A DNA stretch of 64,000 bases, from contig NZ_ATUS01000001.1 in NCBI RefSeq assembly GCF_000420325.1, positions 1,678,463-1,742,462 on the forward strand, written 5' to 3'. The notes under the pieces were generated by a model that worked only from the letters and a program-made list of their open reading frames with translations, was not told where the DNA came from and made no database searches. Shown here piece by piece: positions 46,829 through 64,000 of this stretch. Made by a program: the position numbers and the translations under genes. The DNA is from Spongiibacter tropicus DSM 19543 (GTDB lineage: Bacteria; Pseudomonadota; Gammaproteobacteria; Pseudomonadales; Spongiibacteraceae). Position 1 is the stretch's first letter, and every line of letters begins with the position of its first letter.

Positions 46829-46834
46829 AGCGAC

Positions 46835-47323: not shown

Positions 47324-47391
47324 GGTGTTACTCCGAAATAAAAAGAACCGGCGCGGGCTGATGGCCGCGCCGTAATAATAGTCGCAGCGGC

Positions 47392-47853
47392 TTACATCTG
47401 CTTGAGCAGATTCACCATTTCGATCGCCGACATGGCCGCTTCTTCGCCTTTGTTGCCCGCTTTGGTGCCCGCGCGCTCAATGGCCTGCTCGATGCTGTCT
47501 ACCGTCAGCACGCCGAAGGACACTGGTACGCTGTATTGCATGGAGACCTGGGCCAGACCTTTGGTGCACTCGCCAGCCACATATTCGAAATGAGGGGTGC
47601 CGCCGCGAATCACCGCGCCCAGCGCAATAATGGCGTCGTACTGACCACCCGCTGCGGCTTTCTGGCACACCAGCGGAATTTCAAAGGCGCCGGGGGCACG
47701 GATGATGGTGATATCGTCTTCGCTCACACCGTGGCGGCGCAGAGCATCCAGCGAGCCTTCCAGCAGGCTTTCTACAACAAAGCTGTTCCAGCGGCCAACC
47801 ACAATGGCGAACTTGCCCGCCACGCCGGTAAAGGTACCTTCAATTGTTTTCAT
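47392..47853 (-). CDS. ribH: Lumazine synthase
   Basis: A 153-residue enzyme condensing the riboflavin pyrimidine with dihydroxybutanone phosphate. Signatures are [47 protein letters not shown] and [13 protein letters not shown]. The ATG at 47853 follows AAGGA; a GTG directly before it is also in frame. Confidence 0.96.
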
Positions 47854-47921
47854 CACTGTTCCTTACATTTCTCAATCATTAGCGGCTGCCGGGCAACCTG
47901 CGTTTTTACCGTAAGCGCCGC

Positions 47922-49046
47922 TCAGCTGAAATCGCCGGGGCTGACAAACTCAACCACTTCCAGATCAAAGCCGGAAATCGCATTGTACTTCACGGGTGCC
48001 CCCATCAGGCGCAGCTTGCCAGCGCCCACGTCACGCAGAATCTGCGAGCCCAGACCGACATTGAAGTAGGTATTCTGGTACTGGGCGCTGTCACCCTGCA
48101 GCGGCGACTTGGTACCGCGCGCAATATCCAGCTCAGCGAGAATATCTTCCGCTTTCTCCTGGTTGGCGAGCAGCACCAGCACCCCGCCGTGTTCGGCCAG
48201 CACTGACAGCGAACGATGCATATTCCAGCCGGTGGTCGATCCCGGTGGCTGGCTCTGCAGCAGATCGCGTACGGTCGAGCCCAGATGCACTCGCGCCAGC
48301 GTCGGCTCGTCGGCATTGACCTCACCTTTCTGCAGGGCGAAGTGGAGTTGACCGGCCACCGAGTCCCGGTAGGCGTGCAGCAGGAATTCACCGAAGTCAG
48401 TATTGATCGGGCCACTGCTCAGCTTCTCAACGGTGCGCTCGTTGAGCACCTGGTAGTGAATCAGGTCGGCAATGGTACCCATTTTCACATCGTGTTCGGC
48501 AGCAAAGGCTTCCAAATCTTCGCGACGGGCCATGGTGCCGTCTTCATTCATGATCTCGCAGATCACGCCGGTGGGCTCAAAGCCCGCCAGACGGGCGAGA
48601 TCACAGGCCGCTTCGGTATGACCCGCGCGATTGAGCACACCGCCGGGCTCGGCCATCAGCGGAAAAATGTGACCGGGCTGGACAATGTCTTCAGCACGGG
48701 CGTTGCGAGCCGCCGCCGTGCGCACCGTGTGAGCACGGTCGGCAGCAGAAATACCCGTCGTCACACCCTCGCGGGCTTCGATCGACAGCGTAAACTTGGT
48801 GCCAAAACCGGAGGCATTGCGATCGACCATCAGCGGCAGCGCGAGTTGTTCGCAGCGCTCACGGGTCATCGGCATGCAGATCAGACCGCGGCCATGAGTC
48901 GCCATAAAGTTGATGTCCTGAGGGCGTACACATTCGGCAGCCATGACCAGATCGCCCTCATTTTCGCGATCTTCGTCATCCATCAGAATGACCATTTTGC
49001 CCAGGCGAATGTCCTGAATCAGCTCTTCTACGGTGCTAAATGCCAT
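47922..49046 (-). CDS. ribB: Dihydroxybutanone-phosphate synthase with degenerate RibA-like domain
   Basis: A 374-residue protein. Residues 1-200 are a complete RibB domain ([59 protein letters not shown]). Residues about 205-374 follow a GTP cyclohydrolase II fold, but the zinc-binding [15 protein letters not shown] stretch is replaced by [13 protein letters not shown], so cyclohydrolase activity is not expected. The true ribA at 35.1 kb supplies it. It starts one base after ribE ends. Confidence 0.93.
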
Positions 49047-49047
49047 A

Positions 49048-49710
49048 TTACTTTGCCTTCATAAAACCGTTTTCGGCCAGTGTGGCCATTGTGATGCCGC
49101 CGCTGCGGCTGTCAAGCGAGCGGGCGTCCAGCAACCGCTCCAGATATCGGGCTACCACATCCACCTCCAGGTTCACCCGGCTGCCGACGCGGTAAGACGC
49201 TATCGTTGTCTCTGCCGCCGTGTGCGGCACAATATTCAGTTCAAAGCTTGCACCATCGACGCGATTTACTGTCAGGCTTACGCCATCGACACAGATGGAC
49301 CCTTTTTGAGCGATGTAGCGCGCCAGATTCTCAGGTGCATCGATGCTCAAACGCAGCGAACGGGCATCGCGCTGCATGGCGACAATCGTACCAACGCCAT
49401 CCACATGACCACTGACAATGTGTCCATCGAAACGACTGCTGGCGAGCATCGCCCGCTCCAGATTCACTGCCATGCCGGTTTTGGCCTCAGCGAAACTGCT
49501 TTGTGCGAGCGTTTCGCGTGACACGTCGGCCCAAAAGCCGTCGCCAGGCAAGTCCACCACCGTCAGACAGACGCCGTTGCTGGCAATACTGTCGCCCAAT
49601 TTGACCTCGGCCAGCGGCAGGTCGCCGCTGCGGATATACAGCCGCAGATCACCGCTGCGCATTTGCAGAGCGGCCACTTCGCCAACGGCTTCAATAATTC
49701 CCGTAAACAC
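49048..49710 (-). CDS. ribE: Riboflavin synthase alpha chain
   Basis: A 220-residue protein with two lumazine-binding repeats. The MFTGIIEAVG start, SIASNGVCLTVV and ERAMLASSRFDGHIVSGHVDGVG in repeat 1, and SICVDGVSLTVNRVD in repeat 2 are typical. The start is GTG with AGGAG upstream. It lies between ribD and ribBA. Confidence 0.96.
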   Translation of the reverse strand: MFTGIIEAVGEVAALQMRSGDLRLYIRSGDLPLAEVKLGDSIASNGVCLTVVDLPGDGFWADVSRETLAQSSFAEAKTGMAVNLERAMLASSRFDGHIVSGHVDGVGTIVAMQRDARSLRLSIDAPENLARYIAQKGSICVDGVSLTVNRVDGASFELNIVPHTAAETTIASYRVGSRVNLEVDVVARYLERLLDARSLDSRSGGITMATLAENGFMKAK

Positions 49711-49718
49711 GCCTGCTC

Positions 49719-50834
49719 CTAGTCCTTCGCTGCGCGCAATTGCCAGCGCCAGTCACGGCCTACAGCGCGAGCATCCACAATCTCCAGCGCCTGCTGCTCG
49801 GCCATCATCTCCATGGGCCAGCTCAACAGTGGCCGCCCGGCACTCCCCATCAGGCAGGGCGCCGTGTAAACAAACCAGTCGTCCACCAGACCGTCTTTCC
49901 AAAACGCCGCACTCAGGGTGGCCCCCGCCTCCAGCATGACCTCATTGCAGCCACGACGGGACAGCAGCTCCATCACCGCGCGCGGCTCAGGGCGGTCACC
50001 CGACAGCACTATAATCTCGGCGCCCCGCGCTTCCAGCACCTTGCGGCGCGCATCATCGCGCGAGGTGGTAAGCAGCAATATCCCACCGCCGCCCTCAAAC
50101 AGCCGCGCGTCGTCCGGCGTTCGCAGTTGCGAATCAAGAATCACCCGCAGCGGCTGCCGCCAGCGATCTGCCATATATTCGTGCTGCGGCGATGTAAAAC
50201 TCTCAGGCCGTACCGTCAGCGCCGCGTTATCGGCCAGCACCGTCTCAATGCCGCTGATAATCGCGCAGCTCTGCGCGCGCAAGCGCTGCACATCGGCCCG
50301 CGCTTGCGGCCCGGTAATCCACTGGCTTTCGCCCGACGCCATTGCAGTGCGACCATCCAGGCTCATTGCCGACTTCATGGTCAGCCATGGCAGACCGCCT
50401 TCCATGCGGCGGCTAAAACCACGGTTCAATGCCCGCGCATCGGCTTCCAGCAGTCCGCAATCCACGGCAATGCCCGCCTCGCGCAACATCGCCAGCCCGC
50501 GACCGGCGACCTGCGGATTCGGGTCCTGCATGGCGACCACCACCCGCGCTACCCCCGACTTGATCAGGGCTTCCGCACAGGGCGGCGTGCGCCCGTAATG
50601 ACTGCAGGGCTCCAGCGTCACATAGGCGGTACAGCCCGCGGCACTGTCGAGCTGCCCCAGGGCATTCACTTCTGCATGCCCTTCGCCCGCCCACTGATGC
50701 CAGCCCTCGGCCAGCACCTGGTCATCACGGGCAATCACACAACCCACTCTGGGGTTGGGACTGGTGGAATAGCGACCACGGCGCGCCAGTTGCAGCGCGC
50801 GCGCCATAGCCTGCTGATCAAAGAGAGAGCTCAT
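49719..50834 (-). CDS. ribD: Bifunctional riboflavin deaminase/reductase
   Basis: A 371-residue enzyme. The N-terminal deaminase (1-145) has HAEVNAL and PCSHYGRTPPC as zinc ligands; the C-terminal reductase (about 150-371) has LPWLTMKSAMSLDGRTA and VMLEAGATLSAAF. It is 11 bases after nrdR with a weak ribosome site, so coupling is likely. Confidence 0.95.
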   Translation of the reverse strand: MSSLFDQQAMARALQLARRGRYSTSPNPRVGCVIARDDQVLAEGWHQWAGEGHAEVNALGQLDSAAGCTAYVTLEPCSHYGRTPPCAEALIKSGVARVVVAMQDPNPQVAGRGLAMLREAGIAVDCGLLEADARALNRGFSRRMEGGLPWLTMKSAMSLDGRTAMASGESQWITGPQARADVQRLRAQSCAIISGIETVLADNAALTVRPESFTSPQHEYMADRWRQPLRVILDSQLRTPDDARLFEGGGGILLLTTSRDDARRKVLEARGAEIIVLSGDRPEPRAVMELLSRRGCNEVMLEAGATLSAAFWKDGLVDDWFVYTAPCLMGSAGRPLLSWPMEMMAEQQALEIVDARAVGRDWRWQLRAAKD

Positions 50835-50845
50835 GCCAACGGAAG

Positions 50846-51328
50846 CTACTTGAGCTTGTCCAGCGACACCCCGCCGGGCTCGGCAGACAGGCGATCAATC
50901 TCGGCACGGAATTCATCGAGATCCTGAAAACTGCGGTACACGCTGGCGAAGCGCACATAGGCCACATGATCCAGCGCCTTGAGCGCCTCCATCACCTGCT
51001 CGCCGACATCGCGACTGTGCACCTCGCGCTCGCCGGTCGCCTGCAAGCGGCGCTTCAGTTCGGAGATCTCTGTCTCCACACGTTCAACACTGACCGGCCG
51101 TTTTTCCAGCGCTTTCAACACCCCGGAGCGCAACTTTTCTTCATCGAACGGTTCGCGAGAGCCATCGGTTTTAATCACCTTCGGCATCAGCAGCTCGGCA
51201 CTTTCGTAGGTCGTGAAGCGCTCGCTGCAGGACAAACACTCACGCCGCCGCCGCACCTGACCGCCCTCGGCGACGAGTCGCGAGTCGATCACTTTGGTGT
51301 CGTCGAAGTTACAAAATGGGCAGCGCAC
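50846..51328 (-). CDS. nrdR: Ribonucleotide reductase regulator NrdR
   Basis: A 160-residue repressor with an N-terminal zinc ribbon (CPFC and CLSC) and an ATP-cone (about 49-139; [24 protein letters not shown]). It senses ATP/dATP through the cone and represses nrd genes. The start is GTG with GGAGG upstream. First gene of the riboflavin-NusB-ThiL operon. Confidence 0.96.
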
Positions 51329-51440
51329 GGTTCAAGCCCTCCGGAAAACGCGCGATTTTATCACCTCGGCCCACACAGGAACAGCACTGCCAAAGGCGGG
51401 GAGCGCGAACACAAATGTCGAAAAGGCGAAATAGTTGCGC

Positions 51441-51468
51441 TTGCGAAACCGCAACAGCCGGTTAGAAT
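51441..51468 (+). promoter_or_regulatory. Candidate promoter of the envelope cluster
   Basis: TTGCGA (51441-51446), 16 bases, TAGAAT (51463-51468). Transcription from about 51475 gives a 40-base leader to the GTG at 51514. The remainder of the 185-base divergent gap (51329-51440) shows nothing recognisable. Confidence 0.5.
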
Positions 51469-51513
51469 CTTTGAAATTAAAGTAGATATATAAATTGCAT
51501 AAGGTACTGACGC

Positions 51514-52800
51514 GTGAGCTTTACAAAACCGGCAAGAGGCCTCAGTGCCGTCCTCGTTTGTTTTCTCGGCTTTCACTACTCCGCCACCGCACAGGATGCC
51601 TTTGGCGACGACGCCTTCAGTGACTTCGCGGGCTCGCTGAGCGCGGAGTTTGCCGAGTTCGAACAATCGCAGGCCGATGAATGGAACAGCTTCGTCAACG
51701 AGATCCGCGCCGAGCAGGATGCGTTCATCGCCGAACTGGAGAGCATGTGGGGCTCGGAGACCGAGAGCAGTGACCGCAGCAAATGGGTGGAGTATGCGCG
51801 AGACCGCCGGGTAAAGCGCACCGTCGACTTTGAGAATAACCAGATTCGCATCGCCGTCATGGGGCAGCCGTCTCCCGACGAGATGAATCGCATTATCAGC
51901 GAGCAATTGCAGGGCGCGCTGGAAACCACGACCGAGCAAGCCAATCAGGAATACCCGATTGTGGCCCGCATGCAGGAAACCGCGACCAGCAAGCCGCTGC
52001 CTCCGGTTCCCGTGGTCGCCGAGCTGCGCGAGCTTGTCGGTGAAAAAGACAACCGCAAAGCGGCTGCCGCACTGGCCAGCAAGGCAAAAATCAGCGAAGT
52101 TGAAATCAAACCCGCTCCGCAGAAAAAAGCAGCTAAGCCTGCGGCAAGCAAGCCGGTCGTTGCCAGTAACAGCAGCAAACCTGCCTCCACAGCAAAAGCA
52201 GCAAATACGACGCCCACAAAAGCCAAAGCCACTGTTGCTGTCATCGACCTGTCTGATAGCTGGCCGGTGCGCCGCGCCCGGAAATACAGCGGCTCTGTCA
52301 CGCAATTTGCCGACAAGATGGATATTCCGCGCCCGCTGGCTTACGCCATCATGTACACCGAGAGCAGCTTCAATCCGGTAGCGGTATCACCGATCCCCGC
52401 TTACGGACTGATGCAGATCGTACCGGGCAGTGCAGGGCGCGATGTGACCAAAATGCACTTTGGCAAAGAACAACTGCTGTCACCGGAGTACCTGTTTACC
52501 GCCGACAAGAATATCGAGGTTGGCATCGGCTACCTGAACATTCTCGACAAGCGCTACCTACGCAAGATCAAGGACCCGCTGAGCCGGAAATACTGCACGA
52601 TCGCGGCTTACAACACCGGCGCCGGCAATGTCGCCAAAGCCTTTACCGGCAAGCTCAATATTTCCCGCGCCGCCGTGGTTATCAACAATATGAGCCCACA
52701 GGACGTGTTTATTACACTGGAAACCAAGCTGCCCTATGATGAGACCCGCAAGTACATCAAGAAAGTGACTGCGGCAGAAAAACACTTCCTGAGCCTGTAA
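51514..52800 (+). CDS. MltC-like lytic transglycosylase
   Basis: A 428-residue exported protein: signal peptide (about 1-26), an N-terminal MltC-type (DUF3393-like) domain, a Lys/Ala/Pro/Ser-rich linker (about 191-244) and a C-terminal SLT domain. Catalytic Glu283 lies in MYTESSFNP, followed by YGLMQIVPGSAGRD and AAYNTGAGNVAKAF. E. coli MltC is a 359-residue lipoprotein; here no lipobox cysteine is at the cleavage site, and the linker is extra. The start is GTG after AAGG. It is first of a rightward series of envelope genes. Confidence 0.83.
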   Translation: MSFTKPARGLSAVLVCFLGFHYSATAQDAFGDDAFSDFAGSLSAEFAEFEQSQADEWNSFVNEIRAEQDAFIAELESMWGSETESSDRSKWVEYARDRRVKRTVDFENNQIRIAVMGQPSPDEMNRIISEQLQGALETTTEQANQEYPIVARMQETATSKPLPPVPVVAELRELVGEKDNRKAAAALASKAKISEVEIKPAPQKKAAKPAASKPVVASNSSKPASTAKAANTTPTKAKATVAVIDLSDSWPVRRARKYSGSVTQFADKMDIPRPLAYAIMYTESSFNPVAVSPIPAYGLMQIVPGSAGRDVTKMHFGKEQLLSPEYLFTADKNIEVGIGYLNILDKRYLRKIKDPLSRKYCTIAAYNTGAGNVAKAFTGKLNISRAAVVINNMSPQDVFITLETKLPYDETRKYIKKVTAAEKHFLSL

Positions 52801-52802
52801 TC

Positions 52803-53555
52803 GTGGATAAAGTTGAGCTTCACAATCAAAAAGTCAGCGCCATTGCCAATCGCCTGCCTACCTGGCTGGTGTCGCTGGTATTGCTGTTTGTCGGCCTGGG
52901 CAATTTCACCGACTCCATTGAGCTGATCAAAAACCTCTACGAATCCGTATCGAGCAAATTCAGCAATAACGTGGAGTATGAGCGCACCAGCCACGTGCGG
53001 GCCGGCCTCAATATTGCTTACATCCAAGACTATATTGGTGAGCCCCAGTTGCTAAAGGAACTGGGCGATGGTCTGCAGGTTCGCCACTATATCGACGACA
53101 AGTACCTCATCTCTCTGTATACCGAGGGCGAGCGGGTAAGCGCCTACCTGGTCTTTGCCAGACAGGACCACTTTCAGCCAGATATGCAAGGCATGAAGGA
53201 ACGCACCCTGGGCGAGGATTCCTTGTTCCAGCTGCGCCAGAATACCGACCGGGTCGCCTTTGAGTACTCGCGCAATATCGCCTACTTCATTGAAAGTCAG
53301 CAGGTGAATTTTGGCGGCGGCTACCTCACGCAGAGCTATCTGGGCTGGGTAAATTACGCAGCACAATTTGGTCCTGCGCCCGACGCCAGCCTGGAGGCGT
53401 TGTATGACGCCGAAGTCATGGGTGAAAACAGCGCGGGCAAGCTGACCACCGCCCGGGAACGCATCCTGCCGAACGCCTTTGGCTACGGCGAACTGAGTAT
53501 TGAAGACATTCAGCGCGGCCTGTTGACCAGTGCCGAACTGCAGTTTTTCGATTAA
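52803..53555 (+). CDS. Single-pass membrane protein of unknown function
   Basis: A 250-residue protein with one N-terminal helix (about 20-40, WLVSLVLLFVGLGNF) and a soluble C-terminal domain rich in aromatic and acidic residues. I recognise no catalytic motif. It starts with GTG two bases after the transglycosylase stop, so co-translation and a shared envelope role are likely. It may correspond to an ETEC_3214-type family, but I am not sure. Confidence 0.7.
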   Translation: MDKVELHNQKVSAIANRLPTWLVSLVLLFVGLGNFTDSIELIKNLYESVSSKFSNNVEYERTSHVRAGLNIAYIQDYIGEPQLLKELGDGLQVRHYIDDKYLISLYTEGERVSAYLVFARQDHFQPDMQGMKERTLGEDSLFQLRQNTDRVAFEYSRNIAYFIESQQVNFGGGYLTQSYLGWVNYAAQFGPAPDASLEALYDAEVMGENSAGKLTTARERILPNAFGYGELSIEDIQRGLLTSAELQFFD

Positions 53556-53585
53556 GACGTATCTGTACAGCAAGGATAACAATGG

Positions 53586-55103
53586 ATGAGGCAAGTCCTA
53601 ACGAGAATAACAAGCTGCTTTCTGCCCATCGCTATTACCGCCTGTGTCAGCAATAGTCCGAAGCCTGACACCAACCTCAGCCAACAGCTGAATGACCCCT
53701 CCGCAGCCTTGGCAAGCGCCGCGGCCTATGACGACCAGGACATGCTGTCGGTGCTCACCCATGCCAGCCTGCGACGCCTCGCGGGCGACTACCGCGGCAG
53801 CAACACCGCACTCGACCGCGCTTACAGCCTCAATGACGAGCTCTATACCCAGAGCCTGAGCGAACTGTCAGCCGCCAGCCTGCTTAACCCCGGCGCCGCC
53901 CCCTACCGTCCCAACCGATTGGAAGTGGGTTTTGTCAGCTATATGAAAGCGCTTAACCATTTGGACATGACCCAAGGTAACAACGCCCTGCAACAGCGCG
54001 AAGCCGCCGCTGTCGAAATGCGTCGCCTCGATATTCTTCAAGGGGAGTCGCGCTATCTCCGAGAGATGGGCGACAACAGTGACCGCTATGACGAGCTGGC
54101 CCAGTTCGTCGTCGCCCTGTTCAGTGAGCGCAGCAAGAACGCCCTGAGCGAAGGCCTGATCGACATTCAAGCGCCTTGGCTCTACGCCCTGTCGGCTATC
54201 ATTTACGAAGCCAACAACGATCTGGACAGTGCCCAACTCGCCTATCGCCGTGCGCTGGCGATGTTACCTGAAGGCGAGACGACCGACGTCCAGCACAATC
54301 TCAGACAGCTTATCCTCGACAACGGCCACCGCTGCCTGAGCGCGCTCGGCTACGAGCAGCAAGCCATCGCCGAATCGCCGTTTGCCGCAGGCGGGGCCGA
54401 CTCGATGACTGACGGCCGCTGGCTGATCGAGCACGACGGAGTGCTGCCCGCCAAGGCGCCGCTCGAAATGCTGCTGACCGCCGACAGTGTGGCTCAGCGA
54501 TTGATCCTGCGCCCGATGATTCGCGGCAGTGAAGCGGAAAAAGCCGCGCAACGCCGACTGTTCGCCGAGCTGTCGCTACACTACGACAGCCCCTACAAAG
54601 ACGCCATCGTAATAGAACTGGGCGACAACTGGAGCGCTGCCGACAGCCTGGGGCTCACCGCTACCATTGGCGGCGGCGTCCGTATCTTCATCGATTACCT
54701 TGCGGATGATGCCGCCGAGCAGCCCACAACACTGCAGACCGTCAGCGGCCAGCAGCTGCCGCTTACCACCATCGCCGATATCGCCGGGGATCTGCGCCGC
54801 TACGAGGCGCTCACTCTCCAGTACCGCTTTGAAGAAGCCCTGCTACGCGAACTGAGTAAATCGGCAGGTTATAAATCCATGACCGGCGGCATCAGTCTGC
54901 CGTTCTCATTGGGCGGCGCGCTGGCGACCTTTTCAGCGGCGGCGGACCTTCGGCAATGGCAATTGCTGCCCGCACGCATCCGCGTATCAAGGATTCCCGA
55001 GGCTGCACTCGGCGACGGCGAACTGGAGCTGATCAGTGGCACTGATCGGCAGCGCCTGACGGTCACAAGCGATCAGGCCGTACTGACCCACCATCAATAC
55101 TGA
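53586..55103 (+). CDS. COG3014-type lipoprotein
   Basis: A 505-residue predicted lipoprotein with lipobox ITAC (Cys20). The first half is helical and TPR-like (RRLAGDYRGSNTALDRAYSLND, YALSAIIYEANNDLDSAQLAYRRAL). The second half has beta-rich segments such as DAIVIELGDNW and GLTATIGGGVRIFIDYL. Its order before an LpoB-like and an LPP20 gene matches clusters of COG3014 proteins as I recall them. Function is not established. AAGGA precedes the ATG. Confidence 0.75.
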   Translation: MRQVLTRITSCFLPIAITACVSNSPKPDTNLSQQLNDPSAALASAAAYDDQDMLSVLTHASLRRLAGDYRGSNTALDRAYSLNDELYTQSLSELSAASLLNPGAAPYRPNRLEVGFVSYMKALNHLDMTQGNNALQQREAAAVEMRRLDILQGESRYLREMGDNSDRYDELAQFVVALFSERSKNALSEGLIDIQAPWLYALSAIIYEANNDLDSAQLAYRRALAMLPEGETTDVQHNLRQLILDNGHRCLSALGYEQQAIAESPFAAGGADSMTDGRWLIEHDGVLPAKAPLEMLLTADSVAQRLILRPMIRGSEAEKAAQRRLFAELSLHYDSPYKDAIVIELGDNWSAADSLGLTATIGGGVRIFIDYLADDAAEQPTTLQTVSGQQLPLTTIADIAGDLRRYEALTLQYRFEEALLRELSKSAGYKSMTGGISLPFSLGGALATFSAAADLRQWQLLPARIRVSRIPEAALGDGELELISGTDRQRLTVTSDQAVLTHHQY

Positions 55104-55111
55104 GTACCGCT

Positions 55112-55708
55112 ATGAAGACGTTTCTGAAAAGCCTGCTTGCCGCGATTGCCGTTTTGACCATGACTGCCTGCGCCAGTAACTCGGTACAGCGGGTCGACGG
55201 TGGCGAGCAGCCACAGTTGACCGACCGCTGGAACGCCAGCGATTCACAGAGTGTTGCCGAAGCGCTGATTCCCGACATGCTGAGCTTTCCCTGGGCCAAA
55301 CCCGGCGCCGACGGGGAGCTGCCGGTGATTGCAATTCAGCACATCAGCAACCGCTCTCACGAGCAGATTCCCGTGGAGACCTTTATCAACTCCATCAAGC
55401 GCGAACTGCTGCGCAGTGGCAAAGCCGAGTTTGTGGTGACCGGCGCGGAGCGCGAGCGAATTCGCGACGAGAAGATGGACCAGGAAATGTTTGCGAGCAT
55501 GGACAGCGCAGTGGAAATGGGCGAAGAGACCGCCGCCACTTTTGCGCTCAGTGGCGTGATTACCTCGCTGGTGGATCAGCTTGAGGGCAAGCGCACCACC
55601 ACCTATCAGGTCGACCTGAAACTCATTGACCTGCGCAGCAACCGCGAAGTCTGGAACGGTCAAAAACAAATCCACAAGTACAGTGAGCGCGCGAGGTTCG
55701 GCCTGTGA
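55112..55708 (+). CDS. LpoB-like penicillin-binding-protein activator lipoprotein
   Basis: A 198-residue lipoprotein (lipobox MTAC, Cys20). The family pattern TDRWNASDSQSVAEALIPDMLSFPW, then PVIAIQHISNRSHEQIPVETFINSIKREL and TYQVDLKLIDLRSNREVWNGQKQIHKY match LpoB/CsgG-like activators. E. coli LpoB stimulates PBP1b from the outer membrane. Beside a lytic transglycosylase, a role in peptidoglycan is plausible, but many LpoB-like proteins are untested. Eight bases separate it from the preceding gene, and its stop overlaps the next start (GTGA). Confidence 0.82.
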   Translation: MKTFLKSLLAAIAVLTMTACASNSVQRVDGGEQPQLTDRWNASDSQSVAEALIPDMLSFPWAKPGADGELPVIAIQHISNRSHEQIPVETFINSIKRELLRSGKAEFVVTGAERERIRDEKMDQEMFASMDSAVEMGEETAATFALSGVITSLVDQLEGKRTTTYQVDLKLIDLRSNREVWNGQKQIHKYSERARFGL

Positions 55709-56703
55709 AGCTGCCCCGCCTGCTGCGTAATACCGCTACGCTCCTGATACTGCTTCCCGTCCTGGCGGCCCAGGCGGCCACCCCGGACTGGGTACAAACC
55801 CCGCCGCAACGTCCCGGCTTCGTATTCGGGGTCGGCGCCGCCGATCTGTCACTGGGGTACGCCGAAGCCAGCGAAGCCGCCAAGCTGTCCGCCCGCAATG
55901 AAATTGCCAGCACCCTCAAACTGCAAGTGGGCTCCGAGCTGACACTGAACAATGTGTCAGACGAAACGGGCAGCCGCAGCACCTTCAACAACAATATCCG
56001 TATCCGCGTGCCCGATATTGCGCTGTCGGATATCCGCATTGTTGAAAGCCGGGAAGTGACCGAGCACAACACGCTTTACAGCCTGGCAGAGCTTGACCTC
56101 AACGCCGCCGCCAGCCGCGTGGCACAGGAAATTCGCACACTGCTGGCAGGCGCCCCACGTACCCGCGTCAGTGGCGACCTGTCCAGTCAGCTTCGACAGC
56201 ATTACCAAAGCATGCTGAATGAGCTGCAGTACACATCGCTGTTGCAGCAGTACCGACTGCTGGGCGGCAAACAAACGTTCGACGACAGCGCAATCAAGCA
56301 GCGTGCCGAGCAGGGCGCACAGTTCTTCGAGCAACTACTGATCCAGCTCGACGCCCGTGACGAACTCAGCACCGGCATCGCCAGCAACATTGCCGCAGAA
56401 CTCGCCCGTCGCGGCCTGCGCACCAGCGCCTCAGGCGACAAGGCCAGCCTGCGGTTGCAGCTGCAAAGCAGCTCCAGGCAGATGGCTCGCAACAACGCGT
56501 TTTACTGCAACATCAAAACCAATGCCACGCTCAGTACTCAAGGTCAGACACTGAGCGCCAGCAGCCGGTCCGCCAAGTCGGTATCGGGAGACAGCGACCT
56601 CGCCTGCCAGAAGGCCGGTGAGAAAGTCGCGGCACTTATCAGCAGGGAGCTAATGGAGAATTTCTGGAAAACACTAAACTCGCCGCAACCAAAACAAAAT
56701 TAA
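55705..56703 (+). CDS. Exported LPP20-domain protein
   Basis: A 332-residue protein with a signal peptide ending AQA and an LPP20 domain directly after it (TPDWVQTPPQRPGFVFGVGAADLSLGYAEASEAAKLSARNEIASTLKLQV). The remainder is helical, with a beta-rich C-terminal part from about residue 235. There is no lipobox, unlike the LPP20 protein at 60.1 kb. GTG start overlapping the LpoB-like stop indicates coupled translation. Confidence 0.8.
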   Translation: MKLPRLLRNTATLLILLPVLAAQAATPDWVQTPPQRPGFVFGVGAADLSLGYAEASEAAKLSARNEIASTLKLQVGSELTLNNVSDETGSRSTFNNNIRIRVPDIALSDIRIVESREVTEHNTLYSLAELDLNAAASRVAQEIRTLLAGAPRTRVSGDLSSQLRQHYQSMLNELQYTSLLQQYRLLGGKQTFDDSAIKQRAEQGAQFFEQLLIQLDARDELSTGIASNIAAELARRGLRTSASGDKASLRLQLQSSSRQMARNNAFYCNIKTNATLSTQGQTLSASSRSAKSVSGDSDLACQKAGEKVAALISRELMENFWKTLNSPQPKQN

Positions 56704-56735
56704 TGCGGCTAAAACTACACAGAGGGTAGATAGAG

Positions 56736-57758
56736 ATGGACAAACGTGTCACGGCAGCAGCTCTGCTGACTGCCAGCCTCACCGCCGGGAATGCGCTTGC
56801 GCAAGATGGCGATCAACGAGCCAGTTTCGGTGACGAAACCGGCTACAACTATGTGGGCGGCTTCTCGGTGGGCTATAAATACCTGGAGCTCGAAGCCGAT
56901 ACTATTCGCGACGCCTACGTAAAAACCATCGGTCTGAACATTCTTCAGTTCGAGTGGTTCCCGGAGCAGGCCACCTGGATGCAAAACATCAGTTGGATGG
57001 CGGCGATCCGCCCCCGCCTGAGCTACGAACTGACGCCCGGCGACAGTGCCGAGCAGGATGAAATTGCGCAGGCTTCTGACTCAGAGAAAGAAGGCTGGAC
57101 ACGCTTTATCGCCGATCTGAGCATCGACCCCGTGCAGCTCTTCGGCGGTGAAAAGTCTGTCCACCGCATCGACATCAACTACGATGTGCAAACCTTCTTG
57201 ATCACGGTGCAGGCGACCCGTGATTACTTCTACATTGAGGATAACGACGCCAAGCTGCTGACCGCTGGTGACAAAATCGACGTGAATACCACCTTCACTG
57301 AAGCCACTGTCGGTTATGCAATGGAAGAGCATGACGTAAGGTTCGGCGTTGGACTCTTCTCCGTCGACTACGAGAAGCCGGTGTCCAGCGACGTCTCCAC
57401 ACCGATTGAGTCGATCTACAAAGGCAGCTTTGAAGCGACCGGCCTCTATCTCGGTGGCTCAGTGCGCTTCTTCGATAGCCTGGACGTCAGCCTGCGCTAC
57501 GACTTTACCTTTGATGCCGAAGCCACCGTCGACGGCGGCACCTCGCTGACCCGCGACGAGTTCGGTATTGAAGACAGCATCGAGTACGAATCCTACACCC
57601 TCGATGTGGTTTACGACCTGCGTAAAACCTCGATGAAGCTGCCACTGGAAGTCCGCTTCAATTACACCCAGCGCCAGTTCGACGCCTTTGTTGAAGGCTC
57701 AACGCTCAACGATGACCGCTTGTTCGGCATTTCGTTGATCGGCAGCTTCACGCTTTAA
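56736..57758 (+). CDS. Predicted outer-membrane beta-barrel protein
   Basis: A 340-residue protein with signal peptide MDKRVTAAALLTASLTAGNALA, alternating hydrophobic/polar strands throughout (GFSVGYKYLELE, GLYLGGSVRFFDSLDVSLRYDFTFD, SYTLDVVYDLRKT) and a terminal strand LFGISLIGSFTL. These fit a barrel, with perhaps 10-12 strands. No family is recognised. GAGGG precedes the ATG. Twelve bases separate it from the large lipoprotein that follows. Confidence 0.7.
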   Translation: MDKRVTAAALLTASLTAGNALAQDGDQRASFGDETGYNYVGGFSVGYKYLELEADTIRDAYVKTIGLNILQFEWFPEQATWMQNISWMAAIRPRLSYELTPGDSAEQDEIAQASDSEKEGWTRFIADLSIDPVQLFGGEKSVHRIDINYDVQTFLITVQATRDYFYIEDNDAKLLTAGDKIDVNTTFTEATVGYAMEEHDVRFGVGLFSVDYEKPVSSDVSTPIESIYKGSFEATGLYLGGSVRFFDSLDVSLRYDFTFDAEATVDGGTSLTRDEFGIEDSIEYESYTLDVVYDLRKTSMKLPLEVRFNYTQRQFDAFVEGSTLNDDRLFGISLIGSFTL

Positions 57759-57770
57759 GAGGACCCAGTC

Positions 57771-60011
57771 ATGAAGAACCTGAAACTACTGACCGCCGCG
57801 TCGCTGGCCCTCGGCCTCAGCCTGCAAGGCTGTGTTTTCGACGAATCCGGCACTGAATATAAAGAACCGAGTGCGAATACCGAGCCGGTTATCAACCTGA
57901 ACTACGACTCGCAGCTCCCCCTGAACACCTACCTCAGCTTCGAGGACAACAGCGCGGACATCGCCGTCCAGTTCGGCAGCCAGACCTTCCGCTTTCCAGA
58001 CCGCTCTGAAATGCGACTGCGCGGCTTTGGCGGTTTCGAGACCGACCGCGTCTGGAAGACCTCAGTCGTAGAAGATTCCCGCGGCATTAAAACGCTGCGC
58101 CTGGGCTACTACGTGGTATCGCCAGACAGCAATGATATTAGCGCGCCGATCTTCCACAACTTTGCCAAAGACAGCCGCGGCAATATCTACCTGACGGAAA
58201 CCGCCGAGCAGCTCAAATCTGACCTCGGTGTGGCCCCCTTCCGGCAGCCCCAGCCTGCACTGCTGTTTCCCGCCAACGTTGAGGTCGGCGACAGCTGGGT
58301 AGCCGGCCCCACGATCGTACCGCTGTTCTATAACTTCAGCTCGGGCACCGGCTGGACCGCGACGCTGATCGACGACAATGCCACCGCTCCCATCAGCGGC
58401 GAGCAAAACTGTATTGTCATCAAGTACTACGGCGAGCGCTTTTCCTACTACCTGTACCTGAAAGATGGCCTTGGTGTCGTTGAGTGGGTGAATAGCTGGG
58501 AAGAAGACCCCAATGGCAAGGTGCTGCCCACCGATGGCTGGGCGCGCAGCGATAAAGGCAATGGCAGCACTGACATTGACTACACCGATTACGGCTGGTC
58601 TTTCGACGACAGTAATCCGGTTGGTGCCGTGCTCTATTCTATCGGTTTGAAAGTGGTCGAGAACGAAGAGGCCAATGCCGATGCGAGCGACAGCTCACCG
58701 ATCAATGATTCCGGCTTCGATTTTACCCGGGTTATCGAGACTACTGCGCCCGCATCAAACACCTACCCGGCACTGCTGGATCTGCGGCTTCCGGATGAGC
58801 GTGGCGAAGAGTTCATCAACTTTGCCGACAGCAAATGGGACAGCACAACGGGTAAATACTACCGGCCGCTGATCCGCATCAGCTTCCAAGGCAACACCTA
58901 TATTGCCGATGAGAGCAACGGCAACTTTGAAGTGGAGAAGCTCTATAACCAGCCCTTTGGCCCCGCTCGCCTGGCGTTTCTGGGTCGCGGTACGCTGGTG
59001 AATGAGGCTGACCCTGCGGACAGCATGAAGTTTGTTGGCCTGATGGAAGGCAATTACGTGAATGCTGGCCCCGACGGCCTGACGTCAGACTTTGCGATTT
59101 TCGGCCTCGGACCGGACCGTCGCCTGCCCGCCGCCAAACCGGGCAGCACCTATCGCATTTATATTTCCTACGCCAATCTTAACGAGCCGTTACGAGAGCT
59201 GCTGGAAATGGATCAGGCGAGTATTGATGAATTCGGTCTGGACGAGTCTGAACTCGGCTATACCAGCATCTGTTACGGCAACCGCACCAGCGAAAATGGC
59301 CCCTGTAACAGCATCAATGTCAGCTTCGAGATCCAGGTACCGGATGTTGAAGGCGAACTGGGCTTCCGCATCGGCGGCATCGACAGCAACGATGAGCTCA
59401 AGTCTGCCAGTCAGTTGTTCTATCTGCCGGTCAGCAAAGATGCCGGTGGCAAAGGAGCACTTACCGCGCGCTTGTACGACCAGTTCAGCGACGTGATTCG
59501 CGGCGCTCGGGATGCCAATGGCGAATTCAACACCGGTATTCTTAATGCCCTGTCTTCGGTGGCCCCCAACAGCAACATCGTCAAATACAGCTATGATTTT
59601 GGTGATGGCGAAAGCGTTGACGACGGTATCCCGCTGGGTGTCTACACCTACACCCAAGACGGTGAATACCAGCTCAAGCTGACTGTTACCGACGACCAGG
59701 GCAATACTGCCACCGCTTCTCGCAAAGTCATTATCAGCGACACCGGCAAGGTGATTATTCGCAACATTGCCAATGACTTCGGTAGCGGCGCCTTCACCAT
59801 CGGCATCGACAATCTCGACGAGCCAGACGGCTACTACGACTACTACAAATTCGTCATTCTCGACAAAGGCGAGGATGAAGTCTTCGAAGTACCGGGTGGC
59901 GTGAACTACGAGATCGATATTATCGATAACGGCGAAGTCGTGTTCACCGAAGAGCGTTTTGTCGGTAATGCAGAAGAGGAAATCGTGGAAGTGGACCTGG
60001 ACCAGGATTGA
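57771..60011 (+). CDS. Large lipoprotein with C-terminal PKD domain
   Basis: A 746-residue lipoprotein (lipobox LQGC, Cys21, Val at +2), rich in Asp, Asn and Ser. A PKD domain occupies about residues 598-660 (YSYDFGDGESVDDGIPLGVYTYTQDGEYQLKLTVTDDQGNTATA). The first 590 residues are beta-rich without a family I know. The C-terminal tail (about 680-746) is highly acidic. PKD modules commonly mediate protein or polysaccharide contact at cell surfaces. With the barrel gene upstream it suggests an outer-membrane barrel plus surface lipoprotein pair. Confidence 0.75.
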   Translation: MKNLKLLTAASLALGLSLQGCVFDESGTEYKEPSANTEPVINLNYDSQLPLNTYLSFEDNSADIAVQFGSQTFRFPDRSEMRLRGFGGFETDRVWKTSVVEDSRGIKTLRLGYYVVSPDSNDISAPIFHNFAKDSRGNIYLTETAEQLKSDLGVAPFRQPQPALLFPANVEVGDSWVAGPTIVPLFYNFSSGTGWTATLIDDNATAPISGEQNCIVIKYYGERFSYYLYLKDGLGVVEWVNSWEEDPNGKVLPTDGWARSDKGNGSTDIDYTDYGWSFDDSNPVGAVLYSIGLKVVENEEANADASDSSPINDSGFDFTRVIETTAPASNTYPALLDLRLPDERGEEFINFADSKWDSTTGKYYRPLIRISFQGNTYIADESNGNFEVEKLYNQPFGPARLAFLGRGTLVNEADPADSMKFVGLMEGNYVNAGPDGLTSDFAIFGLGPDRRLPAAKPGSTYRIYISYANLNEPLRELLEMDQASIDEFGLDESELGYTSICYGNRTSENGPCNSINVSFEIQVPDVEGELGFRIGGIDSNDELKSASQLFYLPVSKDAGGKGALTARLYDQFSDVIRGARDANGEFNTGILNALSSVAPNSNIVKYSYDFGDGESVDDGIPLGVYTYTQDGEYQLKLTVTDDQGNTATASRKVIISDTGKVIIRNIANDFGSGAFTIGIDNLDEPDGYYDYYKFVILDKGEDEVFEVPGGVNYEIDIIDNGEVVFTEERFVGNAEEEIVEVDLDQD

Positions 60012-60032
60012 GGACAGGATAAACCCGCCACA

Positions 60033-60060
60033 AAAAAGCCCGCCAATTGGCGGGCTTTTT
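60033..60060. terminator. Bidirectional intrinsic terminator
   Basis: A perfect palindrome: AAAAAGCCCGCCAA followed by its complement. It has T tracts on both strands and separates the rightward PKD lipoprotein from the convergent LPP20 lipoprotein. Confidence 0.93.
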
Positions 60061-60108
60061 CTTTTTCTGGCCACCGGCATCGTGGCCAGTTGATCGCAAA
60101 AGGTCGGC

Positions 60109-60681
60109 TCAGCCGCCCAGCTCGCGATTCAGGTCTTTCTGCGCTTCAGCGCCTTTAAACTCCTGCAACAGCACCTCGCGCACATCTGGCTGCACGCTGC
60201 GCTGACTGGCATCGAGCATATTGTCGAACAGCGAAAGCGTTTTTTCGCGGCCCATGGTCAGCAGCACGCAGAGGTTTTTGTTGCCATCGATCTCGACAAA
60301 GTCCACACGCTCAGGACGCGTGCCGATCAGCGTCTGCTGAGTCAGCTGCTTGGACACAGAAGAGAACGTAGAACCGCTGGAGACGCCGCTGGACACATCC
60401 GTACGCTCACGAAACACTTTATCCAGTGCTGCTACTTTGGTTTCCAACTGCTGAGCCAGGTCGGTGCGGGCATTGGCAATCGCCAACTGACGATCGATCG
60501 ACATATTGCCGGAATATGGCACGCATTGAGCGCTGGCAAAACCGTCTTCGATGTAGGGGTTAAGTACCCAGGCAGGCAGGCCCGATGCGCTCTGCTGCTC
60601 ACTGGCCATTTGCTCACCGCCGCTGCTGGCACAGCCGGCCAACAGTACGGCACAACCCAGTCCAAATAATTTCTTTTTCAT
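60109..60681 (-). CDS. LPP20 family lipoprotein
   Basis: A 190-residue lipoprotein (lipobox LAGC, Cys17). The LPP20 core is LPAWVLNPYIEDGFASAQCVPYSGNMSIDRQLAIANARTDLAQQLETKVAAL, followed by a Ser-rich stretch and a C-terminal domain that includes VEIDGNKNLCVLLTMG. It is convergent with the cluster above but shares its theme. The gap 60682-60856 to the glyA terminator holds a possible leftward -10 (CATAAT, 60781-60776) and nothing else. Confidence 0.83.
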   Translation of the reverse strand: MKKKLFGLGCAVLLAGCASSGGEQMASEQQSASGLPAWVLNPYIEDGFASAQCVPYSGNMSIDRQLAIANARTDLAQQLETKVAALDKVFRERTDVSSGVSSGSTFSSVSKQLTQQTLIGTRPERVDFVEIDGNKNLCVLLTMGREKTLSLFDNMLDASQRSVQPDVREVLLQEFKGAEAQKDLNRELGG

Positions 60682-60856
60682 TCAGCACTCCAGGTATCAC
60701 TTATTTACCGATGTCTCGATTTCGGCAGCCTCAGCCACCCTCTCTTTTTTATCTACACCTCTTGTTATACCTGCTCATTATGCATCGCAAAACGCCGGAG
60801 GGGGCGATTTGGGAAAAGTACCGATAGCAACACTCTAAATTTGAGTCATCAGGCAT

Positions 60857-60884
60857 AAAAAAGCCGGGCAGTGCCCGGCTTTTT
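60857..60884. terminator. Intrinsic terminator after glyA
   Basis: GCCGGGC, loop AGT, GCCCGGC (60863-60879) flanked by A6 on the left and T5 on the right, so it works in either direction; glyA is the gene it serves. Confidence 0.92.
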
Positions 60885-60906
60885 CTTCACACGGCCAACG
60901 GCCTGC

Positions 60907-62169
60907 TTAGCCGTAAACAGGGAATTTCTTGCACACGTCCAGCACCTTGGCTTTGACTTCCTCGATCTTGGCTGAGGCGTCACCCGCTTCCAGCGCTTCC
61001 AGTACGTCGCACATCCAGTTGGCCAGCTCGACACACTCGGCTTCCTTGAAGCCGCGGGTCGTCACTGCCGGCGTACCGACACGCAGACCGCTGGTAATGA
61101 AGGGCGAGCGGGGGTCGTTAGGCACCGCGTTCTTGTTCACAGTGATATTGGCCGCACCCAGCGCCGCATCAGCATCTTTACCCGTGTAGGGCTTGCCGAT
61201 CAGGTCCACCAGCATCAGGTGGTTTTCAGTGCCGCCGGAAACGATGTTAATGCCGCGCTCGATAAAGGTCTTCGCCATAGCCTTGGCATTGGCAACGACC
61301 TGCTTCTGGTAGTCGACATAGCCGGGCTCCATCGCCTCTTTGAAGCTGACGGCCTTCGCTGCAATCACGTGCATCAACGGACCACCCTGACCGCCGGGGA
61401 ATACCGCCGAGTTCAGTTTTTTCTCGATCTCTTCATTGGCCTTGGCAATGATCAGACCGCCGCGGGGGCCGCGCAGGGTTTTGTGTGTGGTGGTGGTGAC
61501 CACATCGGCAACCGGCACCGGGTTGGGGTAAATGCCCGCAGCAACCAGACCGGCAACGTGGGCCATATCAACCATCAGATAAGCGCCGACTTTGTCAGCG
61601 ATTTCGCGGAATTTGGCCCAATCAACAATGCCCGAGTAGGCCGAGAAGCCCGCTACGATCATTTTGGGTTTATGCTCCAGCGCCAGCGCCTCGACCTGGG
61701 CGTAATCGATCTCGCCCGTCTCGTTGTTCAGACCGTACTGCACCGCGTGGTAGGTTTTACCAGAGAAGTTGGGCTTGGCACCGTGAGTAAGGTGACCGCC
61801 CGCATCCAAGCTCATGCCCAGTACCGTTTCGCCCGGCTGTACCAGCGCCTGATAGACCGCGGCATTGGCCTGAGAACCAGAGTGGGGCTGCACGTTGGCG
61901 TAGTCGGCACCGAACAGCGCCTTCGCACGCTCAATGGCCAGAGACTCGGCCTTATCGACGTATTCACAGCCACCGTAGTAACGTTTGCCGGGGTAACCTT
62001 CGGCGTATTTGTTGGTCAGCGCGGTACCCTGCGCCTGCATAACCCGGGGGCTGGTGTAGTTTTCAGAAGCGATCAGCTCGATATGCTCTTCCTGACGCAC
62101 TTCTTCTTCCTGGATTGCAGACCAGATTTCGTCGTCAAAACCGGCAATCGTCATCTCTTTGTTGAACAT
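60907..62169 (-). CDS. glyA: Serine hydroxymethyltransferase
   Basis: A 420-residue PLP enzyme interconverting serine and glycine with THF (E. coli 417). Signatures are [35 protein letters not shown] and the PLP lysine in [14 protein letters not shown] near residue 230. The ATG at 62169 is chosen since [14 protein letters not shown] is the usual start. A TACAAT on the minus strand (62216-62211) is a possible -10. Confidence 0.97.
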
Positions 62170-62274
62170 GGGAACCCCCGAAGGCAGATACAGGCTATGA
62201 AAAGCCGCGCATTGTACAATAAACACGCGCGGCGGGCATCGCTTTTACGTGCCCGAAAAGCGGCCGGATGGCCC

Positions 62275-62592
62275 TTACCAGCTCAGCGGCAATCGCTCGC
62301 CGATCTGTGACTCCGCCGCCGCATCCAGCAGCTGCTGCAGCGTCTGCTGCTCGCGATTACAGAACCATTGCGTCCCGTCCCAGCTGAAGTGATAGCCCCC
62401 GGAGCGCGCCGCCAGCCACAGTTCCTGCGTCGCGGCCTGGCGACTGAAAATCAGCGCGCTGCCGTCGGGACAGCGCAGCGTGAGGACGGTACCGGCGATT
62501 TCGCAATCGACATCCGCCTCCAGCTCGTCCACGGCATCTTCAATCGCGTCGTACAGCTCGTCGAGCTGATCGTGAAATTCCACTTCATTCAT
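62275..62592 (-). CDS. cyaY: Frataxin homologue CyaY
   Basis: A 105-residue iron-binding regulator of Fe-S cluster assembly. The acidic first helix FHDQLDELYDAIEDAVDELEADVDCE and the sheet SALIFSRQAATQELWLAARSGGYHF are characteristic. The ATG at 62592 is supported by the family N-terminus MNEVEFHD. It is divergent from lptM and lysA, the standard arrangement. Confidence 0.94.
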   Translation of the reverse strand: MNEVEFHDQLDELYDAIEDAVDELEADVDCEIAGTVLTLRCPDGSALIFSRQAATQELWLAARSGGYHFSWDGTQWFCNREQQTLQQLLDAAAESQIGERLPLSW

Positions 62593-62622
62593 TACGGACA
62601 ACCCCTGCGTGATGGCGGCGCA

Positions 62623-62690
62623 AGTATAGCAAGCCAACGGCGTGGAGAACGAGCGCAGCCTTAGCATCTGCGCGGCCACACCGCTATACT
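62623..62690. promoter_or_regulatory. Divergent -10 elements for cyaY and lptM
   Basis: TATACT on the minus strand at 62628-62623 faces cyaY, and TATACT on the plus strand at 62685-62690 faces lptM. For lptM, TTAGCA at 62661-62666 is an 18-base-spaced -35 candidate; for cyaY none is convincing. Confidence 0.45.
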
Positions 62691-62718
62691 ACGCGCTTCA
62701 TTTTCCGGGGTGCTGACC

Positions 62719-62877
62719 ATGGCTTATCGACACGCACGCAAGCTGCTTTCCATTCTGGCGGTGGCGATGTTACTGGTCGCCTGCGGGCAAACCGGGCCAC
62801 TGGTGCTGCCCGACGATGCGGCCAACAATGCAGACGGCCCCGATACCGAACAAGCCCCGGCAAACGCCAACGAGTAA
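62719..62877 (+). CDS. lptM: LPS assembly lipoprotein LptM
   Basis: A 52-residue lipoprotein: signal MAYRHARKLLSILAVAMLLVA, lipobox LVAC (Cys22), then the diagnostic GQTGPLVLP (GQKGPLYLP in E. coli LptM/YifL). LptM assists oxidative maturation and assembly of LptD. The short acidic tail is variable. It is nine bases before lysA, the same order as Pseudomonas and E. coli relatives. Confidence 0.93.
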   Translation: MAYRHARKLLSILAVAMLLVACGQTGPLVLPDDAANNADGPDTEQAPANANE

Positions 62878-62886
62878 GTACACACT

Positions 62887-64000
62887 ATGACTGTTTTCCA
62901 CTATCAAAGCGGCGAGCTGTTCGCCGAATCCGTTTCGCTGCGCGCTATTGCCGAGCAGTACGGCACCCCCTGTTATGTGTATTCCCGCGCCTATCTGGAG
63001 CAGCGTTTCAGCGAGTACAGCGACGCACTGCAAGGCCAGGACCACCTGGTGTGTTACGCCGTGAAGGCCAACTCCAATATTGCCGTACTCAATGTGCTGG
63101 CCCGCCTCGGCGCCGGCTTTGACATCGTCTCGGTGGGCGAGCTGGAACGCGTACTGGCAGCCGGTGGCCCGGCAGAGCGGGTGGTGTTCTCCGGCGTGGG
63201 CAAAACGGCCGCTGAAATGCGCCGCGCACTGGAAGTGGGTATTTACTGTTTCAATGTCGAGTCAGAAGCCGAACTGGAACGGCTCAACGCCGTGGCGGCC
63301 GAGATGGGCGTGGTGGCGCCGGTGTCGATTCGCGTCAATCCCGATGTCGACGCCAAAACGCACCCCTATATTTCCACCGGCCTGCGCGACAATAAATTCG
63401 GCATTGATATCGCCCGCGCCCCGGAGGTGTACGCCCACGCCGCCAGCCTGTCGAACCTGGCCGTCAAGGGCGTGGACTGCCATATCGGCTCGCAACTCAC
63501 CGACACCAGCCCCTTTCTCGATGCCCTGGACCGCGTACTGATGCTGGTCGACACCCTAGCCGAGCAGGGCATCGATATTGCCCATCTCGACCTTGGCGGC
63601 GGCCTGGGTGTGCGCTACCGCGACGAGCAGCCGCCGTCGACCGGTGACTATATCGCCGCCATCCGCGAGCGACTGGGTGAGCGCCAGGTCAAACTGATGT
63701 TCGAACCGGGTCGGTCGATCACCGCCAATGCCGGCGTATTACTGACGCAGGTGGAGTTCCTCAAACTCAATCCCCACAAGAACTTCGCCATCGTCGACGC
63801 GGCCATGAACGATATGCTGCGCCCGGCACTGTATCAGGCCTGGATGGACCTGCTGCCCGTAGTGCCTCGCAGCAACGGTGAAGCACGCCACTACGACGTG
63901 GTCGGCCCGGTCTGTGAAACCGGCGACTTTATCGCCAAAGATCGCGAGCTGCGCATCGAAAGTGGCGACCTGCTCGCACTGGCCTCCAGCGGCGCCTATG
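62887..64000 (+). CDS. lysA: Diaminopimelate decarboxylase (partial)
   Basis: The first 371 residues of a PLP enzyme that makes lysine from meso-DAP; about 45 residues are cut off at the right edge. PLP lysine in CYAVKANSN, HIGSQL, LDLGGGLGVRY, FEPGRSITANAG and GPVCETGDF are present. The start is ATG at 62887. Confidence 0.96.
   Translation, partial: MTVFHYQSGELFAESVSLRAIAEQYGTPCYVYSRAYLEQRFSEYSDALQGQDHLVCYAVKANSNIAVLNVLARLGAGFDIVSVGELERVLAAGGPAERVVFSGVGKTAAEMRRALEVGIYCFNVESEAELERLNAVAAEMGVVAPVSIRVNPDVDAKTHPYISTGLRDNKFGIDIARAPEVYAHAASLSNLAVKGVDCHIGSQLTDTSPFLDALDRVLMLVDTLAEQGIDIAHLDLGGGLGVRYRDEQPPSTGDYIAAIRERLGERQVKLMFEPGRSITANAGVLLTQVEFLKLNPHKNFAIVDAAMNDMLRPALYQAWMDLLPVVPRSNGEARHYDVVGPVCETGDFIAKDRELRIESGDLLALASSGAY

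Follow-up and report, generated by a model that had tools for sequence, protein, structure and literature searches.

What do eight envelope-protein genes do between nrdR and glyA, two genes that are often neighbours, in Spongiibacter tropicus DSM 19543? The window analysed here is a 64,000-nucleotide stretch of the forward strand of contig NZ_ATUS01000001.1 (RefSeq assembly GCF_000420325.1, positions 1,678,463 to 1,742,462), and coordinates below count from its first letter. The block, whose genes we designate A to H, is bounded on the left by nrdR (50846..51328, reverse strand), which is present in 55 of 57 relatives and adjoins glyA at empty sites, and on the right by glyA (60907..62226, reverse strand). 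All eight genes lie where the original prediction, made from the sequence alone, placed them, and on the strands it gave. We found that the block is modular: C, D, and E form a core, A, B, and H move semi-independently, and F-G is lineage-specific. The explanation that we tentatively favour, at somewhat below an even chance, is that the block controls peptidoglycan synthesis and cutting from an anchor in the outer membrane and is extended by a lineage-specific barrel-lipoprotein add-on.

A C-D-E core with movable partners

The core comprises C, a COG3014-like lipoprotein (53586..55103, forward strand), D, an LpoB-family lipoprotein (55112..55708, forward strand), and E, a secreted LPP20-domain protein (55705..56703, forward strand). 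Using D-type proteins as bait, we scanned named genomes and compared the best 80 of 126 loci, which span Gammaproteobacteria and metagenome-assembled genomes titled Nitrospirota, Deltaproteobacteria, and others; several of these loci end at contig ends, and the gene caller missed D itself in four of the 80 (L104, L134, L140, and L141). C was found in 78 and E in 79 of the 80 loci, followed by H (44, by profile), A (33), B (6), F (4), and G (4), and the C-D-E counts are biased because D was the bait and the loci are the best 80 of 126. In an even sample of the class, D-type genes occurred in 38 of 369 genomes at a threshold of E <= 1e-60, set after seeing a gap between 3e-64 and 2e-32, and 30 of these loci were usable for neighbour counts. 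Within 1.5 kilobases (kb) of the D-type genes, C was present in 26 of the 30 loci and E in 19; the anchored sets include the window. A-type genes were detected in 29 of the 369 genomes, and 12 genomes held both types against 3 expected (Fisher p 3.8e-6, uncorrected for relatedness). The cell-wall theme of a lytic transglycosylase with an LpoB-family protein recurs in other taxa.

Within the genus, we compared 18 Spongiibacter genomes including this one, 17 of which contain nrdR (none was found in G003, 84% complete), and measured the nrdR-glyA distance between aligned ends. In 13 of the 17 genomes, 84-209 bases separate the two genes, and they are also adjacent in all four outgroups (three from a second genus in the family, one from a different family in the order), which bears out the claim that they are often neighbours. 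They are 9.5-15.3 kb apart in the remaining four (this genome, G012, G013, and G009), all of which hold A-H there. At this site, the three other genomes have the genes in the same A-B-C-D-E-F-G order, with H adjoining G, a recurrence that is more than chance. Strong A-type matches (E <= 6e-96) and matches to B, C, and F each fall in the same four of the 18 genomes; this genus-wide test of the unit was made with those four proteins.

Beyond the genus, the partners stand beside C-D-E in different arrangements. A and H are divergent beside the core in Pseudoalteromonas loci; A, B, and H lie beside it in one Colwellia (L102); and B, H, G, and F do so in Alteromonadaceae XY-R5 (L080), with a regulator gene adjoining. 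Among 293 genomes of the order, F was detected in five, of which four are Spongiibacter, and F and G were seen together only in four Spongiibacter genomes and one Alteromonadaceae genome; all four D-anchored loci with F also hold G, B, and H. The original prediction had counted this lineage-specific pair within the set; in L080, the pair is found on the side of H and B and diverges from C-D-E. Submodules are also found apart. E-A-H and C-D are more than 1 megabase from each other in G025, and H-A-B lies on a different contig from C and D in G041, where C and D flank a 164-residue gene. The predicted co-occurrence of the genes therefore holds for A, B, C, and F within the genus and breaks down in these two genomes, where part of the set occurs independently. 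This separation counts against one indivisible machine. We consider it improbable that the whole set of eight builds a single structure across the envelope, with an LpoB-type activator and a dedicated transglycosylase, on a TPR scaffold and LPP20 rings, opening a controlled gap in the wall just where the F barrel and G are placed.

Two further gene groups were observed around A and H. The E-A-H genes of G025 (L209:4573-7544) lie within a locus that appears exopolysaccharide-like by eye, with a FecR-domain gene upstream. In a neighbouring genus, H-A is followed by a FadL/TodX-like protein of 388-394 residues (L206:5876-7060 in G018; L207:8535-9701 in G019), a label given by Pfam at 21.9 bits against a cut-off of 29.7 for the G018 copy and by eye for the G019 copy. 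The A-H pair beside a probable barrel gene thus recurs with a different barrel.

Candidate functions in wall synthesis and cutting

C is predicted to be a repeat protein. Pfam gives only single TPRs, all sub-threshold, and a profile built from 11 C-type proteins finds TPR repeat proteins of solved structure (best E 4e-8). The AlphaFold model, at a predicted local distance difference test (pLDDT) score of 79.7, shows a helical, TPR-type first half and a mixed alpha/beta second half. A Foldseek search with this model returned nothing at E <= 0.001, and its top non-significant matches were TPR proteins. The designation COG3014-like rests on the position of C beside LpoB genes and on its TPR-type helices.

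D contains the LpoB domain PF13036 (112.8 bits; cut-off 22.3), and a D-type profile matches solved LpoB. It is the sole LpoB-family match in this genome, which also encodes a UB2H-bearing PBP1B (68.3 bits; cut-off 27). The UB2H domain is the site of action of LpoB in E. coli (PMC6220978) and of LpoP in Pseudomonas (PMC7267771). Like E. coli LpoB, which is encoded at the ycfL-lpoB locus, D is a lipoprotein with an LpoB domain by sequence in a genome with a UB2H-bearing PBP1B; unlike it, D is encoded with C, E, and H rather than ycfL. LpoP of P. aeruginosa is an outer-membrane lipoprotein acting on the UB2H domain of PBP1B, the role that we propose for D, but it is a TPR protein whereas D is LpoB-like (PMC7267771). 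Beside the PBP1B gene of this genome, no LpoP-type gene was evident by eye. Near the PBP1B gene of G012 and G004, and separated from it by one gene, is a gene for a small lipoprotein that does not resemble LpoP. The LpoB family is patchy in the genus: a PF13036 match is missing in 6 of the 18 genomes, although UB2H matches in all 18.

E exceeds the LPP20 cut-off (PF02169, 29.5 bits against 25.9) and has no cysteine within its first 40 residues, so it is an LPP20-domain protein and not an evident lipoprotein. A search of solved structures with E returned nothing.

A (51514..52800, forward strand) is an MltC-like lytic transglycosylase, predicted to be secreted. It resembles E. coli MltC in its SLT catalytic domain (82 bits in the Pfam search), in the ESSFNP motif found by alignment to that protein, and in a Mltc_N match that remains under the cut-off (17.6 bits against 22.6). 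It differs from MltC in a long inserted linker, in falling under the MltC equivalog cut-off (NF008670, 173.4 bits against 375 required), and in having no consensus lipobox, as its sole early cysteine, Cys16, is preceded by Val. The wider motif ESxFNPxA is present in all 33 A homologues from the 80 D-anchored loci, and we take the Glu of ESSFNP to be the catalytic residue of A. Signal peptides and lipoboxes here and below were judged by eye, as were the labels of genes near PBP1B and in L209.

The set had been called undescribed, and this does not hold for its core. The Cj0089-Cj0090-Cj0091 operon of Campylobacter jejuni encodes a TPR lipoprotein, a small lipoprotein, and an LpoB homologue (PMC3100323). 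In Helicobacter, HP0018 is a lipoprotein of unknown function and a homologue of the TPR lipoprotein Cj0089, and in many enterohepatic species the neighbour of hp0018 is a homologue of HP1457, termed an LpoB homologue (PMC11394524). In these systems, as in the window, one operon holds the genes for a TPR lipoprotein and an LpoB homologue. The sizes of Cj0089-0091 (453/122/207) resemble those of the C/DUF1425/LpoB clusters of L071 (451/130/201) and L047 (460/120/200), sister clusters in which a DUF1425 gene lies between the C-type and LpoB genes. Unlike Cj0089-0091, the window has no DUF1425-type gene (8 bases separate C from D), and it contains the LPP20 gene E together with A, B, F, G, and H. 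Deletion of hp0018 alters cell shape and vesiculation: the cells become less helical, and vesicles appear in chains. AmiA and the lytic transglycosylase MltD both co-precipitate with HP0018 (PMC11394524). These findings provide a precedent for a scaffold that tempers wall-cutting enzymes near an LpoB-type activator.

In the explanation that we tentatively favour, C would be the scaffold, and D would work through the UB2H domain of PBP1B, a peptidoglycan synthase. A would be a dedicated lytic transglycosylase, kept close and regulated by C, and E and H would be oligomerising periplasmic or outer-membrane partners of LPP20 fold. B would form the inner-membrane end. Wall synthesis and cutting would thereby be switched together at one envelope site, and F-G would probably be a barrel with its partner lipoprotein, the core serving their placement through the wall. 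The gene content and order, the conserved linkage, the domains, the catalytic motif, and the UB2H-bearing PBP1B are observed, whereas we infer every protein contact and the direction of the regulation.

Several points weigh against this explanation. D fails the LpoB equivalog (TIGR02722, 84.1 bits against 110.55), and its tether measures 23 residues, from Cys20 to the aligned domain start at Asp44, against 58 in E. coli LpoB. With so short a tether, the reach of D to PBP1B is not assured, and the help of C or a stretched wall may be required. Because both the equivalog cut-off and the tether length fail, we dropped the assignment of D as the LpoB of S. tropicus. UB2H matches in 55 of the 57 relatives and LpoB-family proteins in only 29, so UB2H is not dependent on D. 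Only 4 of the 30 A-type loci in the even class sample have H within 1.5 kb, and 3 have B, which makes the link to A weak outside some lineages. The likeness of C and D to Cj0089/HP0018 and Cj0091/HP1457 is one of arrangement and domains; the reported location of Cj0089 is the inner membrane, and neither adherence nor colonisation changed significantly when it was disrupted (PMC3100323).

The membrane, barrel, and LPP20-like partners

B (52803..53555, forward strand) carries an ETEC_3214 domain (NF043066, 102 bits; cut-off 35) and matches in 5 of the 57 relatives. The above-cut-off domain and an N-terminal membrane stretch, a membrane helix by eye in the hydrophobic N-terminus of B, are common to B and the ETEC_3214-domain proteins described in PMC5554520, where the function of that family is likewise given as unknown.

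F (56736..57758, forward strand) has no family in the Pfam or NCBIfam-type domain searches. Its AlphaFold model is of low confidence (pLDDT 48.8) and contains 13 strands of at least 9 residues, and nearly all of the best 50 Foldseek rows for this model are outer-membrane barrels, none of them significant (best E 7e-3). F is therefore a probable outer-membrane beta-barrel. G (57771..60011, forward strand) is a 746-residue lipoprotein with one PKD domain at about residues 591-651 (PKD_4, 47.8 bits; cut-off 27), and a solved-structure search with it retrieved PKD domains only. Homologues of G are found in L047-L049 and L080. A class-wide search, which scored few candidates per genome so that an absence is not proof, gave matches in 68 of 369 genomes; outside the block, those listed fall in model positions 552-708. 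Since these outlying matches are confined to the PKD domain and the adjoining part, the tally is uninformative on the rest of G.

H (60109..60681, reverse strand) is a lipoprotein that scores 22.0 bits for LPP20 (PF02169), under the cut-off of 25.9, and is LPP20-like only. Among the labels first given to the proteins, the LPP20 assignment of H thus falls short, while a lytic transglycosylase (A), an LpoB-like protein (D), an LPP20 protein (E), and a PKD protein (G) are upheld.

The H. pylori protein Lpp20 has an SHS2-like fold in common with ring-forming FlgP and also with FlgT (PMC12222027), which leaves room for oligomers of E or H. The same fold is the starting point for a very improbable reading, in which E and H would combine with C-D into a structure like a flagellar H-ring or basal disk. 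Helicobacter with sheathed flagella conserve HP0018, but H. pylori cells that lack hp0018 are still flagellated, with an apparently normal sheath (PMC11394524). No flagellar gene was noticed by eye beside the block, where no search for one was made.

Ring formation would also suit an unlikely but more substantial alternative, namely that the eight genes supply the periplasmic and outer-membrane portion of a machine that exports a polysaccharide or a surface protein or assembles it at the surface. The LpoB-like and LPP20 proteins would then build a ring or collar, A would open the wall, and F-G would be the outer-membrane exit and its lipoprotein. The fold shared by Lpp20 and FlgP (PMC12222027) is consistent with this, as are the position of E-A-H beside exopolysaccharide-looking genes in G025 (by eye, L209), the H-A pairs followed by a FadL/TodX-like protein in G018 and G019, and the CsgG-domain proteins in related LpoB clusters (L047 and L071). 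However, no transporter, polymerase, or ATPase is encoded among A-H, nrdR, and glyA, and F-G accompany the core in only 4 of the best 80 of 126 loci.

The nrdR-glyA site and the meaning of the block

A to G run in one direction. They are separated by 2 (A/B), 30 (B/C), 8 (C/D), 32 (E/F), and 12 (F/G) bases, and the start of E overlaps the end of D by 4; the predicted gaps of 2-32 bases accordingly apply to five junctions and not to D/E. G and H are convergent, with 97 bases in between, which contain a terminator-like hairpin with a 12-pair stem and a T tail (60033..60060, forward strand). Overall, the promoter and terminator scans gave no excess over shuffles (11 terminator sites against 10.3 by chance), and only this hairpin, the longest stem in the terminator scan, is persuasive. 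The scan listed no terminator-like site at the E/F junction.

Composition gives no clear sign of recent import, as the values of the block are near those of its neighbours: the guanine-cytosine (GC) content is 57.3% in the block and 59.4% in the rest of the window, and that of third codon positions is 0.65-0.74 in the eight genes (H lowest) against 0.69-0.75 in four neighbours. A plasmid search with C as the sole query and a phage search with G as the sole query found no match, so neither protein hints at descent from a plasmid or phage. No tRNA was found in a scan of 46000-64000, and PADLOC assigned no defence family to any of the eight proteins.

An insertion remains the likely origin of the block at this site, as had been predicted, but the bearers are not monophyletic, and boundary repeats of at least 9 bases, sought in the window, G013, and G012, are absent from the first two; one 9-base match in G012 was taken as chance. 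A RibD-NrdR-GlyA tree places G009 among the outgroups from the family and the order (0.946), and its other backbone nodes are weak (0.43-0.86). This non-monophyly led us to drop the idea of a recent insertion in one clade. The D proteins of the four bearers do form a clade (support 0.90; tree of 85). Ancestral acquisition followed by losses is the simplest account of the distribution, and transfer between species is the alternative.

Other genes occur in the same gap. The G012 site contains a second cassette beside glyA (L047:11570-17148), which encodes a small outer-membrane barrel, a COG3014-like protein, a DUF1425 (YcfL) protein, LpoB, a 448-residue protein, and a CsgG/LpoB-domain protein. 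At the G009 site, H is oriented as in the others, and there are an extra caspase-domain gene and two open reading frames of 135-136 codons. Caspase-fold proteins (PF00656 twice, CHAT once), with signal peptides apparent by eye, are encoded beside LpoB/LPP20/CsgG lipoprotein genes in three genomes (L049:14557-15591 in G009, L206:11159-13309 in G018, and L071:11818-15315 in G044).

The extra genes of G012 and G009 would be expected if the nrdR-glyA gap were a favoured site that gathers envelope gene cassettes with no single function, as would the separation of E-A-H from C-D in G025 and of H-A-B from C-D in G041. We nevertheless think this doubtful. The eight-gene set is kept with the same A-G order in four divergent genomes, and most of the same families regroup in other orders in L080 (B-H) and L102 (A-E and H).

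The C-D-E core belongs to a known but little-studied kind, widespread as it is; the term COG3014 was not found in the open-licence literature searched, where a single paper mentions two of LPP20, LpoB, and COG3014. The variant described here adds to the core a transglycosylase, an ETEC_3214 protein, and the lineage-specific pair of barrel and PKD lipoprotein. If all eight proteins did form one assembly, a lineage-specific surface module would be coupled to local wall remodelling. Since one predicted operon combines a lytic transglycosylase with both an LpoB-family protein and a scaffold, the coupling of wall synthesis and cutting becomes testable in a marine bacterium, and the block gives context to the unexplained observations on HP0018 and Cj0089.

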